From: Neisseria animaloris | Lineage (GTDB): Bacteria; Pseudomonadota; Gammaproteobacteria; Burkholderiales; Neisseriaceae | Assembly: GCF_900637855.1 (NCBI RefSeq) | Contig: NZ_LR134440.1 | Span: 1,860,001-1,924,000, forward strand | DNA length: 64,000 nt | Direction: 5' to 3' | In this document: positions 50,104-56,047 of the stretch, piece by piece | Position numbering within the stretch: position 1 is the stretch's first letter | How the letters are laid out: each line of letters starts with the position of its first letter | Made by a program: the position numbers and the translations under genes | Notes under the pieces: model-generated | Told to the model about the DNA's origin: nothing | Database searches by the model: none | The model's input: the letters and a program-made list of their open reading frames with translations, nothing else

Positions 50104-51426
50104 ATGAAATCAGAAAACATTGCAGAAGTTTTTTCGTTAGATTATGAAGGAAGGGGAGTGGCTCGGGTAAACGGGAAAACGGTTTTTATTAAGGGGGCGT
50201 TGCCGTCTGAACAAGTAATTTACCGTCTTACCCGAAGTAAAAAACAATTTGACGAAGCAGAAACTGTTGCCGTTATAAAAGCATCCGCCGAAAGGGTAGA
50301 ACCTAAATGTTGTTATTTTGATACATGTGGAGGATGTGTTTTACAGCATGCTTCACCGTCATCACAAATTGCTTTCAAACAGAGAATATTAGAAGAGCAA
50401 TTATTACGTATAGGTAAGGTATTACCTCAGCAATTGCTTTCTCCTATTTACGGTATGCCATGGGCTTACCGCCACCGTGCACGGCTTAGTGTGTCGGTAA
50501 ATCGAGAAGGCCGTCTGAAATTAGGGTTTCAGTCCCGTAAAACACATGATGTTGTTAATGCCGTTAATTGCCCGGTTTTGCCAAAGCATGTTTCAAATAT
50601 GTTGCCTGAATTAAGAAATTTGCTGCAAAATTGTGCCGACAGAAAAGAGCGTGTCCACCATATAGAATTTTTGATTGGGGAACAGGTTACAGTTTTAAAT
50701 GTCTGTATAGAAAATGAACCGTCCGAAAGCACAAAGCAGAGACTCAGGAAGTTTTCAGATGGCTTGAATAAAACAAACGTTCAGGAATGGCAAATTTGGC
50801 TGCAATACGGCGAAGGTAAAGCCTTCCCATTTTATCCCGAACAAGCACCTCAACTCACCTACAGCTTACCGGAATTCGGCGTGCAAATGCCTTTTCGTCC
50901 CGGTGACTTTACCCAAATTAATCCTCATTTGAATGCTCTAATGGTCAGCAGAGCATTACGTTTGTTAGATATCAAAATGGGAGAAAGAGTGGCCGACTTG
51001 TTTTGCGGCTTGGGAAATTTCAGTATTCCCATGGCCAAACAAGGTGCTGATGTTGTCGGCATCGAAGGTGCCGATTTTTTAACTCAGCGGGCTTCCGAAA
51101 ACGCACGATTAAATAATTGTGGCAGTAAAACATCATTTCAGACGGCTGATTTGTTTGAAACCGATGCCGCCACGGTAGCGTCATGGGGCGTATTCGATAA
51201 AATGTTGCTTGATCCGCCAAGAAGCGGAGCATATGCAGTTGTTCAGGCCCTGCATAAGCCGTATTTGCCCAAAAGAATAGTTTATGTATCCTGCAATCCG
51301 TCCACATTTGCACGGGATGCCGCCGTTTTAGTAGATAAAGGTTATTGCTTTAAAGCGGCAGGTGTGATGAATATGTTCGCCCAAACCGCGCATGTAGAAT
51401 CCATAGGATGTTTTGAGTTGCATTAA
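50104..51426 (+). CDS. rlmD: 23S rRNA (uracil-1939-C5) methyltransferase RlmD
   Basis: The 440-residue enzyme has an N-terminal TRAM domain (about 1-60), an Fe-S cluster region with CCYFDTCGGCVLQH (C70, C75, C78) and a later NCPVLP cysteine. The SAM domain contains VADLFCGLGNFSIPMAKQGA near 299. The catalytic cysteine is in VSCNPSTFARDAA near 396. It methylates 23S rRNA. The gene is AT-richer than average for the window, like the operon that follows it. Confidence 0.96.
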   Translation: MKSENIAEVFSLDYEGRGVARVNGKTVFIKGALPSEQVIYRLTRSKKQFDEAETVAVIKASAERVEPKCCYFDTCGGCVLQHASPSSQIAFKQRILEEQLLRIGKVLPQQLLSPIYGMPWAYRHRARLSVSVNREGRLKLGFQSRKTHDVVNAVNCPVLPKHVSNMLPELRNLLQNCADRKERVHHIEFLIGEQVTVLNVCIENEPSESTKQRLRKFSDGLNKTNVQEWQIWLQYGEGKAFPFYPEQAPQLTYSLPEFGVQMPFRPGDFTQINPHLNALMVSRALRLLDIKMGERVADLFCGLGNFSIPMAKQGADVVGIEGADFLTQRASENARLNNCGSKTSFQTADLFETDAATVASWGVFDKMLLDPPRSGAYAVVQALHKPYLPKRIVYVSCNPSTFARDAAVLVDKGYCFKAAGVMNMFAQTAHVESIGCFELH

Positions 51427-51588: not shown

Positions 51589-51732
51589 TTGAATTATTCA
51601 CTTTTAATTATATTACTGGCGCTGCTTTTGCTAGTGTTGTTGTTTGTGCGCTACAAGCAAAGTAGCGGCAAACCGACAAAAAAGCAAAGCAAATCAGCCA
51701 AAACATCCAGGTCAAGCCGCCATGTTGCATGA
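51589..51732 (+). pseudogene. Membrane-anchor part of the FimV-like protein, cut off by TGA
   Basis: A TTG start with GGGAGA seven bases upstream opens a 47-codon frame: NYSLLIILLALLLLVLLFV (one transmembrane helix), then a basic Ser/Lys-rich stretch ending SSRHVA, then TGA at 51730-51732. The frame is the same as that of the FimV-like ORF that begins at 51763, and no other stop intervenes between them. The intact gene would encode an anchored protein of about 485 residues. The TGA may be a nonsense mutation (for instance from CGA), a sequencing error, or a readthrough site. Confidence 0.7.
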
Positions 51733-51762
51733 ACAGGGCATGCAGCCGGCAGTAGCGACTGG

Positions 51763-53046
51763 ATGGATAAAGTTTCGCAATCAGTTGCTGAAACAGAAAA
51801 TCAAGATTGGGAATGGGACAGCGGAGGTCATGCTGAAACTGCTACGGCATCCGTTTCTGTACAGGAAGTCGATCCGCTGACCGAGTATCAGGTGTATAAA
51901 CAGTTTGGCTATGAAAGCAAAGCGGCAGCTTCCCTTGCGGGTTATCTCGGCGGTTTGAAAGACGGGGCTCCTGAAAAACTTGTACATGAGTTAATTGGTT
52001 TGAGTCTGCGCACTAACGATATCGACTTGCTTGCGGACACGCTTGAAAAACACGGCGAAGCACTAACAGAGGAGAGCTTGGCCGAGTATATCAAAGCCGG
52101 CTTGATTGCAAACTCTACCCATCTGCCCTTGCGGGTTATGGCTGAACGCCGCTTAGGTTGGGGTATGAGAGAAGTTGCCCGTCAAATAGGCGAGAAAACC
52201 GGTTTGGAAGATCTTCAAGCCGCAAGCCCAACATTAACCATTAATAATACTGCGGATGCACAAACTTCAAATGGTGGTGCAAAATCAACGCGCAGTCCGA
52301 TTGTTATCGGCCAAGTTGACTGGAATGATGTAAGTAGTGAGGAGATGAGTGCTGTTATCGGCTTTGTGAAGCCTGAGAAGAGTGCAAGAATCCTAAATAA
52401 TAAAGTAGATTATGAAACGGCATTACAACAATACAATCGTGCCATTCAAAAATCTTCCAAGCCGGCAAGCTTGATCATTGATGCTCTGAAGTTAGATTAC
52501 CAACATGAAGAAGTTAATCAGTTTGCCAAGCACTTATGGAAGTTATATTACGCTTTGGGACAGTATGGACGTCAAGTAAAAGAACGTATGCTAGGGTGGG
52601 GATATAGCCTTGGTTATCATGAAGTATTTGATGATTTAGAAAAGGGGCCGTCTGAACAGAAAGTTCGCGAGATTGGATTGGAAAGAGGTTATTTGCAACC
52701 AACTTCCTTGCAACTGAAAGCCAAATACCGTGATCTGGTGCAAAAAGATGCTTCGCTTATCAGCGCAAACTCTTCTCCTGCAGAAGAAGCTATTAAAGAA
52801 GTGGAATCTTTACTGATGTACGGGCAATTGGAACAGGCTATCGGTACTTTGGAGCAGGCTGTCCTGCAATACCCGAAAGAGTCTCAGCTTTATATTATGT
52901 TGTTTGACTTATACGAGCGTGCGGAAGATTGGCCTCGATTGGAGCAATTCTTACGCTTGTTGCGTGAGCGTGTAGAAAGTTTGCCAGAAGAAGTTGTTTT
53001 GGCTATGAGCCGCCTGCTCCGCCGTGTCAATCAACATTCCAAATAA
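51763..53046 (+). CDS. FimV/TPR-like cytoplasmic protein, first gene of the GTPase-roadblock operon
   Basis: The 427-residue acidic protein starts MDKVSQSVAETENQDWEWDS and has no signal peptide of its own. Near residues 38-62 it carries DPLTEYQVYKQFGYESKAAA, which resembles the FimV C-terminal repeat (DPxxExxVYxxxGxxxxA). The middle is alpha-helical, and the last 90 residues look like TPR helices. No Shine-Dalgarno precedes the ATG; its true start is probably the TTG at 51589 and the TGA between them is a lesion. FimV-type proteins organise polar hubs for type IV pili. Downstream genes encode a receiver-like protein, a GTPase and a roadblock protein. Confidence 0.72.
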   Translation: MDKVSQSVAETENQDWEWDSGGHAETATASVSVQEVDPLTEYQVYKQFGYESKAAASLAGYLGGLKDGAPEKLVHELIGLSLRTNDIDLLADTLEKHGEALTEESLAEYIKAGLIANSTHLPLRVMAERRLGWGMREVARQIGEKTGLEDLQAASPTLTINNTADAQTSNGGAKSTRSPIVIGQVDWNDVSSEEMSAVIGFVKPEKSARILNNKVDYETALQQYNRAIQKSSKPASLIIDALKLDYQHEEVNQFAKHLWKLYYALGQYGRQVKERMLGWGYSLGYHEVFDDLEKGPSEQKVREIGLERGYLQPTSLQLKAKYRDLVQKDASLISANSSPAEEAIKEVESLLMYGQLEQAIGTLEQAVLQYPKESQLYIMLFDLYERAEDWPRLEQFLRLLRERVESLPEEVVLAMSRLLRRVNQHSK

Positions 53047-53072
53047 CCAAATACTTTTGAAGAGTACCGATA

Positions 53073-54173
53073 ATGGACAATCTGTTACCAAAAATTAAAA
53101 CTGTGCGGATTATGTTGCAAGAAATGGGCGAACAACAAGATGCCGTGTTTCGTATGGCATTTAAAATGCATAATACCACCAATTATGAAATTGTTACCCC
53201 GGAATCAGAAAGGGAGCCTGATTTGGTGTTGGTCGATACTGACACTGAAAAAGGTATGGAAAAATGGAAAACTCTAAAAGAAATCTATCAGGATATTCCG
53301 GTGGTGATGTTCTCTAGTCGAGAGCCCATTGTTACAACACCTTATCTAGCTAAACCGATTAAATTTGATACTTTGTTTCCCATACTTCGCAGCTTGTCTC
53401 AAGGAGGAGGTATTTTTGAGGCTTCTGGGCACAGAAATTTAGAAGAAGATGCGAATATCAATCATACAGCAGGGCCGCGTAAGACAACAATTCATCGATT
53501 TAATCCACAAAAAGGTTTGCTTGGTGCATTGAAATTTGCCAGCCAAGGACATCAAGATATTGCTGTGTTGCATGAAGGAAAACCGGTTTTAATCGTATTT
53601 CCGAGTATTCAGCGTGTATTGCTTACAATTAGTGCGGCAGAGTTAGAAAAATTAAGTAGGAATGATAACCTCGCAGTTGTATGCAAAGCAGTACCCGACA
53701 ACCCGCAATGGAAAGAAAAAGCTAAAGTAACCATTATGTCTTGCCTATGGCAAATGGCTATTTGGACAGCTCAAGGGCGATTAATTTATCCAATGACACC
53801 GCAGACCGTTTTTACATTAAAACGTTGGCCAAATCTTACACGTCTTGCGCCAGTACCTGAGTCAATGCGCTTATCTGCTTTTCTAACAAAAACTTCCGTG
53901 AATTTGAATATTCTCTATAAAGTTATGCCTTTGGATATGCCGGATATTTTAAATTATTTGGCAGCCACCTCTGTTACAGGCTTTTTGGCTACTGATAGTG
54001 AATTCACAGTACAAGATAAACAGGAAAATATTTCAACTGATAGCGTTAATGTTAATAGTGATGTGCCTGACAACCAAATGGCTAAAGACGCTGAAAAAGC
54101 CGTTAGTCCATCGGCAGAACAACCACGCAGTCTACTCCAACGCTTGATGCGTAAGTTAATCGGTAAACGTTAA
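53073..54173 (+). CDS. Pseudo-receiver protein of the GTPase-roadblock operon
   Basis: The 366-residue protein has an N-terminal CheY-like fold: DLVLVDTDTE at the position of the phosphoacceptor, PVVMFSSREP, and LAKPIKFD with the conserved Lys-Pro. The usual N-terminal acidic pair is missing (TVRIMLQEMGEQ), so phosphorylation is doubtful. The middle third (ALKFASQGHQDIAVLHEGKP) is unrecognised, and the C-terminal 60 residues are low-complexity followed by a basic end. It could act as a scaffold or effector for the GTPase encoded next. Confidence 0.65.
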   Translation: MDNLLPKIKTVRIMLQEMGEQQDAVFRMAFKMHNTTNYEIVTPESEREPDLVLVDTDTEKGMEKWKTLKEIYQDIPVVMFSSREPIVTTPYLAKPIKFDTLFPILRSLSQGGGIFEASGHRNLEEDANINHTAGPRKTTIHRFNPQKGLLGALKFASQGHQDIAVLHEGKPVLIVFPSIQRVLLTISAAELEKLSRNDNLAVVCKAVPDNPQWKEKAKVTIMSCLWQMAIWTAQGRLIYPMTPQTVFTLKRWPNLTRLAPVPESMRLSAFLTKTSVNLNILYKVMPLDMPDILNYLAATSVTGFLATDSEFTVQDKQENISTDSVNVNSDVPDNQMAKDAEKAVSPSAEQPRSLLQRLMRKLIGKR

Positions 54174-54190
54174 TATTTAAGGGGTATGTA

Positions 54191-54727
54191 ATGAAGGAAA
54201 ATAAGATTATCTTTACCGGTCCTGTTGGCGTAGGTAAAACAACAGCTATTTCAGCTTTATCTGATGAACCACCAGTTCAAACAGATGCAGATGCTTCTGA
54301 TATGACTTTAGTCAGAAAAGGGTATACTACGGTAGCAATGGATTATGGTGTAATTTGTTTGGATGAAGAAACAAAAGTTCATCTTTATGGTACACCAGGG
54401 CAGGAACGTTTCAATTTTATGTGGGAAATTTTAAGCCAAGGGAGTATGGGCCTAATTCTACTGTTGGATAATACACGTACCAACCCTTTAAAAGATTTGC
54501 AATTTTTCTTGGATGCTTTCCGAGAGTTGTTAAAAACAGCTCCGTTGGTTGTGGGTGTTACCAAAATGGATATCCGTTCTTTGCCCGGAGTGGATGTGTA
54601 CCAAAAATATTTAGCACAGAATAATTTTAATGTACCAGTTTTTGAAATTGATGCTCGCCGCGAGGAAGATGTAAAACAACTGGTTAGTGCAATGTTGTTC
54701 TCAATTGATCCGGGATTAGAGGTATAA
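54191..54727 (+). CDS. Small Ras-like GTPase, MglA/COG2229 type
   Basis: At 178 residues this is a compact GTPase. P-loop GPVGVGKT is at 10-17, the switch II/G3 motif YGTPGQERF is at 66-74, and G4 TKMD is at 124-127. G3 lacks the canonical Asp (LYGTPGQ), as in the prokaryotic COG2229 Ras-like group. Such proteins act as on/off switches controlled by roadblock/LC7 partners, exactly the partner encoded two genes downstream. Cellular output in this organism is unknown. Confidence 0.85.
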   Translation: MKENKIIFTGPVGVGKTTAISALSDEPPVQTDADASDMTLVRKGYTTVAMDYGVICLDEETKVHLYGTPGQERFNFMWEILSQGSMGLILLLDNTRTNPLKDLQFFLDAFRELLKTAPLVVGVTKMDIRSLPGVDVYQKYLAQNNFNVPVFEIDARREEDVKQLVSAMLFSIDPGLEV

Positions 54728-54728
54728 A

Positions 54729-55370
54729 ATGGAATCAACACTTTCTTTACAATCGAATTTGTACCCTAAAATCACTCCGGCGGGTGCTTATTATGCAGTT
54801 TCAGGAGATACACCAAGTGCCAGCCGTACCCTTTTGTATGGTTTATTACGTGCTGATGCAACAGAGACTATCAGTAGCGAAAAATTGTTAGCATGGGCAG
54901 ATACCAGTGATATAGATAGTGCATTAAATTTGCTTTATCGTCTACAGCGGCTTGAATTCCTTTATGGAGAGGAAAATATAAGTACAGATGATGTAAATTT
55001 ATCGGATGAGCAATTACCCGAATTATTGGCACAACTTTCCAATTCAGGAAGAGCTCTGTTAGCGGATGAAAACGGTTTATATTTCGCTAATGCAGGTTTT
55101 CATCATGAAGCGGCGGAAGAGTTGGGTATTCTGGCAAGTGAGGTTGCTGAGATTTCGGATAGACATCAACTTTTAATTAAGAATAATTTGCACATTCATC
55201 ATAATGCATGGGGTATTTGTGATCCCTCAGGTCAAAGCGAGTTGACTTTCTTTCCATTGTATATTGGCATGAGTAAACTAATTTTAGTAATTGGTGGAAT
55301 GCCTGATTTGAATAAAGAAGCTTTTGTTACTTTAGTGAAGGTTTTATATAACCGTTACGGAAGACAGTAA
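54729..55370 (+). CDS. Unknown protein between the GTPase and roadblock genes
   Basis: The 213-residue cytoplasmic protein starts one base after the GTPase stop, implying coupling. Residues about 30-80 are helical (TLLYGLLRADATETISSEKL) and may form a winged-helix or similar. The second half (GRALLADENGLYFANAGFHH onward, ending LILVIGGMPDLNKEAFVTL) has the alternating pattern of a roadblock-like fold. No catalytic motif is visible. A role as GTPase adaptor or effector is an inference from context only. Confidence 0.6.
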   Translation: MESTLSLQSNLYPKITPAGAYYAVSGDTPSASRTLLYGLLRADATETISSEKLLAWADTSDIDSALNLLYRLQRLEFLYGEENISTDDVNLSDEQLPELLAQLSNSGRALLADENGLYFANAGFHHEAAEELGILASEVAEISDRHQLLIKNNLHIHHNAWGICDPSGQSELTFFPLYIGMSKLILVIGGMPDLNKEAFVTLVKVLYNRYGRQ

Positions 55371-55443
55371 GTAAAAATTAAATTTATAGATAGTATGAGT
55401 GATGGGTTTATAACCTTTCATTTAAGTTTGGATTGGAATAAAA

Positions 55444-55806
55444 ATGCGTGAACAATTATTAATTTCCGTGCTAAGTGATTTGAATAATACTTCTACTGAT
55501 ATTACTGCATCGGCAGTAATATCAACGGATGGTCTGCCTATTGCGACTTTGTTACCCAATAATCTTAATGCTGATAGAGTAGGTGCAATGTCTGCCACTC
55601 TTTTAGCGTTAGGTAATCGAGCGGTACATGAATTGGCTTGTGGAGAATTAGACCAAGTGATGGTAAAGGGTAAAAATGGCTATGTTTTGTTAAGCCAAGC
55701 TGGAAATAATGCAGTGTTAGCATTAATGGCTAAAGAGAGCGGTAAATTGGGATTGATCCTGTTGGATGCAAAACGTGCTGCAAAACACATTGCAGATATT
55801 TTATAA
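55444..55806 (+). CDS. Roadblock/LC7 domain protein
   Basis: The 120-residue protein is a single roadblock/LC7 domain: MREQLLISVLSDLNNTSTDI, then ASAVISTDGLPIATLLPNN, then SATLLALGNRAVHELACGE and a final helix. The G-x-P after a beta-strand (DGLPIA) and central helix match MglB-type GTPase regulators. MglB-like dimers act as GAP or guanine-exchange partners of MglA-type GTPases. It ends the operon, 73 bases after the previous gene and 165 bases before tRNA-Asn. Confidence 0.85.
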   Translation: MREQLLISVLSDLNNTSTDITASAVISTDGLPIATLLPNNLNADRVGAMSATLLALGNRAVHELACGELDQVMVKGKNGYVLLSQAGNNAVLALMAKESGKLGLILLDAKRAAKHIADIL

Positions 55807-55932: not shown

Positions 55933-55961
55933 TTGACAGGTATTTCAATTGATAATATAAT
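55933..55961 (+). promoter_or_regulatory. Consensus sigma-70 promoter for tRNA-Asn
   Basis: TTGACA (55933-55938) and TATAAT (55956-55961) are both exact consensus with a 17-base spacer. The tRNA begins 11 bases after the -10. This is the strongest promoter I can see in the window. Confidence 0.9.
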
Positions 55962-55971
55962 TTAATACATT

Positions 55972-56047
55972 TCCCCGATAGCTCAGTCGGTAGAGCGACG
56001 GACTGTTAATCCGCAGGTCCCTGGTTCGAGCCCAGGTCGGGGAGCCA
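55972..56047 (+). tRNA. tRNA-Asn (GTT)
   Basis: The 76-base cloverleaf has acceptor arms TCCCCGA and TCGGGGA, discriminator G and encoded CCA. The D arm is GCTCAGTCGGTAGAGC. The anticodon GTT lies at 56005-56007 in CTGTTAA, and GGTTCGAG forms the T loop. The anticodon reads AAC/AAT, so the tRNA carries asparagine. Confidence 0.95.

Follow-up and report, generated by a model that had tools for sequence, protein, structure and literature searches.

The five genes described here, which we call A to E and which encode a candidate MglA-type GTPase system, lie in a 64,000-nucleotide stretch of the Neisseria animaloris contig NZ_LR134440.1 (positions 1860001-1924000 of the 2.34 Mb genome; hereafter the window). 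They occupy window positions 51589-55806, all on the + strand and in the order A-B-C-D-E, with intergenic gaps of 26 (A-B), 17 (B-C), 1 (C-D) and 73 (D-E) bases. A preliminary description made from the sequence alone had listed the five genes in this order, with D beginning one base past the stop of C, and all of them are found at these coordinates. B to E are open frames, but A is split by an in-frame stop in this strain. The features are:

51589..51732, + strand: gene A, N-terminal membrane anchor with a TTG start, a single hydrophobic helix and basic residues after it, cut short by an in-frame stop (read from the sequence)
51763..53046, + strand: gene A, soluble part, 427 amino acids, rich in tetratricopeptide repeats (TPR) (sub-threshold TPR matches, scans of homologues)
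53073..54173, + strand: gene B, 366 amino acids, predicted pseudo-receiver, middle alpha/beta domain and winged-helix-like C-terminus (alignment, model)
54191..54727, + strand: gene C, 178 amino acids, predicted MglA-family Group 3 small GTPase (Pfam matches, motif alignment)
54729..55370, + strand: gene D, 213 amino acids, predicted winged-helix-like N-terminus and divergent MglB-fold roadblock at about residues 89-212 (homologues, model)
55444..55806, + strand: gene E, 120 amino acids, predicted MglB-type roadblock/LC7 protein (Robl_LC7 match)

C matches the Pfam families Ras (E-value 6.4e-11) and ATP_bind_1 (PF03029; 1.2e-15). In an alignment of 15 homologues, the others being 55-69% identical to the first, the G3 motif GTPGQ (G67-T68-P69-G70-Q71) is invariant (15/15), as are T46 and T47 in G2 (15/15), where threonine replaces the arginine of Group 1, and D154 and R156 in G5 (15/15), where the middle residue is A, G or P and the window protein reads DAR. 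Six of the 15 proteins, that of the window (TKMD) among them, keep the G4 lysine, and 9/15 have Q, R or H there, as counted by eye. GTPGQ together with a threonine in G2 is the rule for MglA Groups 2-5, and a G5 DAR, often accompanied by loss of the G4 lysine, is described for Groups 2 and 3 (PMC4316618; here and below, statements on published work refer to the accessible text of the papers cited). By its sequence, C is an MglA-family GTPase bearing the Group 3 hallmarks that were tested, and the MglA-type call of the preliminary description is upheld. Among solved structures, the profile of C scores highest against eukaryotic Rab-type GTPases (4.4e-9), followed by MglA of Thermus (5.5e-7) and of Myxococcus (7.8e-7). 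The gene neighborhood is also that of Group 3: B, C, D and E stand in order, and B and C occur with D or E in 67 of the 80 named loci, by which we mean, throughout, the best 80 of 126 confirmed loci from named genomes. Because Group 3 loci with an unknown protein, MglA and one or two MglB proteins were already listed for Neisseria in 2014 (Wuichet and Sogaard-Andersen, PMC4316618), the core of the system is not new; with an mglB of Snodgrassella having been studied as well (PMC11112851), the module should no longer be called uncharacterised. Extra GTPase paralogues, 43-52% identical to C, lie away from A-E in genomes of genus g24 and in genome G073 (L080, L082, L083, L096 and L097; G and L denote our genome and locus numbers).

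E matches Robl_LC7 with 60.8 bits (E-value 1.1e-16) against a curated cut-off of 23, carries the Asp-Gly pair within STDGLP, and is closest by sequence, among solved structures, to two archaeal roadblock proteins (7f8m and 9jue). It is, on this match, an MglB-type roadblock protein, as the earlier single-domain roadblock/LC7 call had it. The D protein of the window has no Pfam match, Robl_LC7 included. However, 24 of the 34 members of the D alignment match Robl_LC7 at an E-value of at most 1 (best 4.9e-4), and D proteins of other genera (G043, G044, G093 and G073) clear its curated cut-off. In the AlphaFold model of D, which has a mean predicted local distance difference test score (pLDDT) of 78, residues 89-212 fold like an MglB roadblock; one of the structure searches behind this, made with VIA, effectively covers the residues from 89 on and barely probes the first 88. 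The N-terminal part appears winged-helix-like, which is our reading of the order of helices and strands, made without a structure match. D, which had been assigned to an unknown family, is instead predicted, from the matches of its homologues and the modelled fold, to be a second, divergent MglB-fold roadblock behind a winged-helix-like part. Many D homologues carry the database name "peptidase M23", which clashes with the domains found; D as a peptidase was rejected, since no peptidase family is matched and the modelled fold is that of a roadblock. Extra roadblock genes lie outside the operon in G006, G007 and G014, as they do in genomes from several further genera of the family. In the window genome, the Robl_LC7 profile finds E only, and as the same profile misses D there, a very divergent third copy is possible.

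A has one N-terminal membrane helix preceded by a few residues only; basic residues, a linker and TPR-like repeats come after it. In the window, its frame runs for 47 codons from a TTG (51589) to a stop and is taken up again, without a shift, from an ATG (51763). Anchor and TPR part share one frame in 36/39 carriers of the module in the genus, the interrupted ones being the window genome, G022 and G020. Against Pfam, window A gives sub-threshold TPR matches only. Scanned against NCBIfam, 12 A homologues match generic TPR families, with SgmX in 4/12 (best 2e-6) and LapB in 6/12; FimV_Cterm (TIGR03504) is found in 1/12 at an E-value of 0.02, so that SgmX and other TPR models match more members. 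No LysM domain was found in window A and two anchored homologues (Pfam) or in the 12 homologues (NCBIfam). The soluble part contains what we take to be a FimV-type motif. The FimV-like character earlier attributed to A applies loosely: the layout is FimV-like, but LysM is missing and FimV_Cterm gives a single marginal match. True membership of the FimV/HubP family was rejected for want of LysM. Outside the Neisseriaceae, many A proteins are short (226-305 amino acids), and the three short ones that we read show no obvious anchor; because of this, unanchored A may be functional. In our searches of open-licence PMC text, supplements lying outside them, we found no description of A as part of the locus.

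B yields only a below-threshold Response_reg match in Pfam. Its model (mean pLDDT 77) begins with a receiver, continues with an alpha/beta domain and finishes in a winged-helix-like part; in a Foldseek search with this model, receivers make up most of the matches listed and dominate the results over the middle domain. D55 and K94 are invariant in 36 sequences, which show no conservation of the acidic pair after strand 1. Because the Asp and Lys are kept and the acidic pair is not, B is by its sequence a pseudo-receiver lacking a full phosphorylation site, and the preliminary picture of a CheY-like protein without the acidic pair holds. As for D, the winged-helix-like C-terminus of B is suggested by our reading of helix and strand order, without a structure match. 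A receiver plus winged-helix "unknown protein" has been described beside Group 3 mglA (PMC4316618), and B is the "unknown protein" of these published loci. Some B homologues bear the database name "alpha-glucan phosphorylase", which clashes with the domains found.

The predicted winged helix of the unknown protein has led to the proposal of a role in transcription (PMC4316618), and the winged-helix-like parts that we read in the models of both B and D would fit a regulator that is switched by C and contacts DNA through B and the winged-helix part of D. We nevertheless regard such a regulator as unlikely: A shares the operon and is membrane-anchored in 36/39 carriers in the genus, winged helices are generally known to serve protein contacts often, and DNA binding by B or D is putative.

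The module is widely inherited as a unit. Among 83 Neisseriaceae genomes, C and E are each matched in 70 and B and D each in 69; the 13 genomes without C are also those without E, and B and D are missing from these and from G076. Because the C (48% identity) and E (30%) matches of G076, which is 58% complete, fall in a paralogous locus, the module itself is present in 69/83. A is reported in 73/83, with a piece only in G049 and weak matches in G071, G072 and G076. The order A-E was found in 32/32 main Neisseriaceae loci inspected (19 + 13); 16 further loci in the second inspection, retrieved for an orphan roadblock or an extra GTPase, stand outside the 32. Frame breaks occur in G020 (A, B, C and D), G060 (B), G014 (A) and G015 (several genes, neighbors included). 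The A-E block is conserved beyond chance. The preliminary description had let its proposal depend on co-conservation of the five genes, and homologues are indeed co-inherited, in 69/83 genomes and with the same order in all 32 loci.

In a profile survey of the class, 76/370 genomes had a match to the GTPase at an E-value of at most 1e-10. With profiles trained on Neisseriaceae, all five genes were found on the + strand in 32/80 named loci; with iterated profiles, 45/80 have all five on a single strand and no more than 5 kb from C, at least 38 of these loci being ordered A-B-C-D-E, and all five are present in 22/41 loci of a second set, which shares some genomes with the named loci. The full set occurs, among others, in Methylotuvimicrobium, Methylobacter, Methylomonas, Vogesella, Aquitalea, Stenoxybacter, Snodgrassella and Neisseria wadsworthii. 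A is present in 46/53 D-bearing named loci versus 0/27 D-less ones (iterated profiles, counted by hand), although five of these 46 matches are short (147-184 amino acids) and the TPR profile may catch unrelated TPR genes; before iteration the figures were 32/53 and 0/27. In the second set, A occurs in 22/22 D-bearing and 1/19 D-less loci, the exception (L153) ending shortly past C. Because A accompanies D and is, with this exception, absent from D-less loci, we assign it mainly to the form of the system with two MglB proteins.

Two genomes hold remnants of the module. In G020 (L043), B, C and D have frame breaks and A has stops, and the matches to E, pilM-Q and pilT look whole; this module is probably in recent decay. 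Its E matches entries labelled N. gonorrhoeae (98%), N. lactamica (94%) and, over part of its length, Klebsiella (100%), labels that can err. In G049 (L072), a shortened A (the anchor and about residues 193-316) is open after an rlmD-like gene, and B-E were not found in the genome. The severing of the A anchor from the TPR part in the window genome, G020 and G022, the absence of the module from two groups of the genus nested among carriers and the truncated A in G049 might together suggest that the module is a relic being lost in the strain described here. We find this very improbable, as B to E run full-length without a break in the window, C is 99% identical to the nearest relative, the soluble part of A keeps an open frame of 427 codons with 98% identity to that same relative, and the short, apparently anchorless A proteins elsewhere suggest that A may function unanchored.

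The preliminary description had suggested that the module concerns pili, surface position or division. On indirect support, type IV pili are the likeliest target; genomes without the module keep pilus genes. In G259, the genes A-B-C-D-E are followed on the same strand by a protoglobin gene and then by pilB (MshEN + T2SSE), pilC (T2SSF) and pilD (A24 peptidase), as we read the domains, and in G031, PilY1 lies near a smaller Group 3-like gene set. Within the genus, a PilM profile scores 193.7-244.6 bits in 39 carriers, counting G020, whose module is broken, and G015, whose assembly is poor, versus 17.5-191.1 bits in 7 non-carriers (p 3e-5). The shift is weaker for PilT (p 0.03, 38 versus 4 genomes, leaving out G015 and the non-carriers with the weakest matches, G019, G021 and G052), and there is none for MreB (p 0.19, 32 versus 5 genomes). 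In Snodgrassella, an orphan-mglB mutant has a spreading phenotype (PMC11112851).

Several observations weigh against a switch for pili. A pilus gene stands beside the module in only 2/121 loci (G259 and G031), and G031 was itself the source of the PilY1 query; this search used a few reference pilus proteins, and a third, weak match was to a non-pilus reference. The 7 non-carriers form two groups nested among carriers, one with a support of 0.22, and because of this, the PilM correlation rests on two or three effective events. Three non-carriers are incomplete (G019, 68%; G021, 81%; G023, 85%), and the low PilM scores of G019 and G021 come from other actin-like genes, PilM not being detected in these incomplete genomes. 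G056 has a true but divergent PilM, and PilQ is present in 6/6 non-carrier loci examined. G049, from which the module is missing, has a near-normal PilM and a normal PilT, and G020 has canonical PilM and PilT despite its broken B, C and D. Finally, the in-frame stop in the window separates the anchor of A from the TPR part.

The first PilM profile search had given rise to the idea that genomes without the module lack pili; this was rejected, since G057 has a divergent pilMNOPQ, G056 has PilM and PilQ, and PilQ is found in all six loci. We retain the weaker statement that PilM is divergent where the module is missing. A need for MreB-based rod shape was likewise rejected, as 7 carriers in the genus are without a true MreB. 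All five genes are unbroken in 5/7 of these (G003, G004, G008, G050 and G069); in G060, B runs over two frames, and G020 is broken.

The scarcity of adjoining pilus genes (2/121 loci) and the five MreB-less carriers with an unbroken module, which indicate that MreB-made rod poles are not needed, would also fit a spatial switch with a different output, such as the division site, envelope growth or surface adhesins. The PilM trend, the pilBCD genes in G259 and the spreading phenotype in Snodgrassella argue against this, and we give it little weight.

In some lineages, other genes adjoin the module. Two genes follow E in 8/41 loci of the second set (L145, L146, L147, L149, L151, L160, L168 and L170), one cluster having a PAS-domain protein and the other being phosphonate-binding-like (Pfam names from the L146 members), and a gene of a protoglobin cluster lies beside D or E in 4/41 (L144, L155, L161 and L170; Pfam on two of the four). 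Because PAS- and protoglobin-type genes adjoin the module, their domains suggest that the switch in those lineages listens to oxygen or redox state.

Based on these data, we suggest that A-E probably form an extended, five-gene Group 3 MglA system, in which a GTPase switch, regulated by D and E and with B for its adaptor, acts through A to position or time type IV pilus activity. C would be the GTP/GDP switch, and E an MglB-type roadblock acting on C as GTPase-activating protein (GAP). D, the second and asymmetric roadblock, would probably form a pair with E to tune GAP or exchange activity, and B would be a phosphorylation-deficient receiver adaptor. A would be a membrane-anchored TPR scaffold that is engaged by C-GTP and places or activates the type IV pilus machine, a role modelled on Myxococcus MglA-GTP with SgmX, a TPR protein, and FrzS, a pseudo-receiver protein. 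The model builds on the families of C and E, the modelled folds of D and of the B receiver, and the observed gene order and co-inheritance; from there, we infer the protein contacts, the GAP activity and the pilus output. The pilus part draws on analogy with Myxococcus, the mglB genetics of Snodgrassella, the pilBCD adjacency in one genome and the divergence of PilM. Of the self-contained spatial switch proposed in the preliminary description, a co-inherited module of GTPase, roadblock, pseudo-receiver and TPR proteins related to MglA-MglB stands, but its core had already been published. More tentatively, and with considerable doubt on our part, A-E could represent a distinct five-protein Group 3 subtype with co-inherited A and D, an asymmetric D:E GAP/exchange complex and A as built-in effector, that is, a portable, operon-sized, Myxococcus-like circuit for pilus polarity that works without MreB-made rod poles and, in other lineages, takes oxygen input via the PAS and protoglobin genes.

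The operon is flanked upstream by what is presumably an rlmD-like gene (50104-51426) and downstream by tRNA-Asn (55972-56047). Promoter-like sites for the operon are about as frequent as in shuffled sequence (15 seen versus 13.2 expected). A sigma-70 consensus promoter with 12/12 perfect positions lies at 55933-55961, directly upstream of tRNA-Asn.

Among known systems, MglA Group 3 of beta- and gammaproteobacteria is the closest, sharing the GTPase motifs, the upstream receiver and winged-helix protein and one or two MglB proteins, with Neisseria spp. named (PMC4316618). The accessible text of that work, which excludes its gene-neighborhood supplement, does not mention the TPR gene A, nor does it describe the build of D, a winged-helix part joined to a roadblock. 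The mgl locus of Snodgrassella (Meng et al. 2024, PMC11112851) belongs to the same family and group and has two mglB genes beside mglA; from gene order, the distant mglB-1 most likely corresponds to D and mglB-2 to E. The mutant studied there, however, affected a third, orphan mglB, whereas the Robl_LC7 search of the window genome finds E only. Myxococcus xanthus, with MglA, MglB, MglC, RomR, RomY, SgmX and FrzS (PMC4316618, PMC9481161, PMC7519303, PMC11580455), has the same functional classes, namely a GTPase, roadblock regulators, receiver-type adaptors and a TPR effector for type IV pili. By contrast, its MglA is of Group 1 with the G2 arginine and TVPGQ, mglA is not near the genes of its response-regulator partners, and SgmX, unlike A, is cytoplasmic and has 1,060 amino acids. 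The polar landmarks FimV, HubP and TspA resemble A in having a membrane helix and a cytoplasmic TPR-type C-terminus (PMC12918733), but A is without their periplasmic LysM domain; the atypical FimV of Acinetobacter baumannii also lacks the periplasmic part and acts laterally (PMC12918733). Actinobacterial conservons (CvnA-D) share the operon of an MglA-type GTPase, a roadblock protein and a sensor-like partner (PMC13343842, PMC4316618), but have a Group 2 GTPase and a histidine-kinase-like sensor, and the four core proteins named in these texts include neither a TPR protein nor a pseudo-receiver. Our observations also suggest a function for proteins that databases name "peptidase M23" and "alpha-glucan phosphorylase". 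Most of what is known of how a GTPase switch sets the place and time of pilus action comes from Myxococcus, in which the genes of the partners do not lie together, whereas the candidate circuit described here is one operon in tractable commensals and symbionts, MreB-less genomes among them, so that its parts can be deleted singly. Set against these systems, A-E are an extended form of Group 3, in which a TPR scaffold travels with a second MglB.

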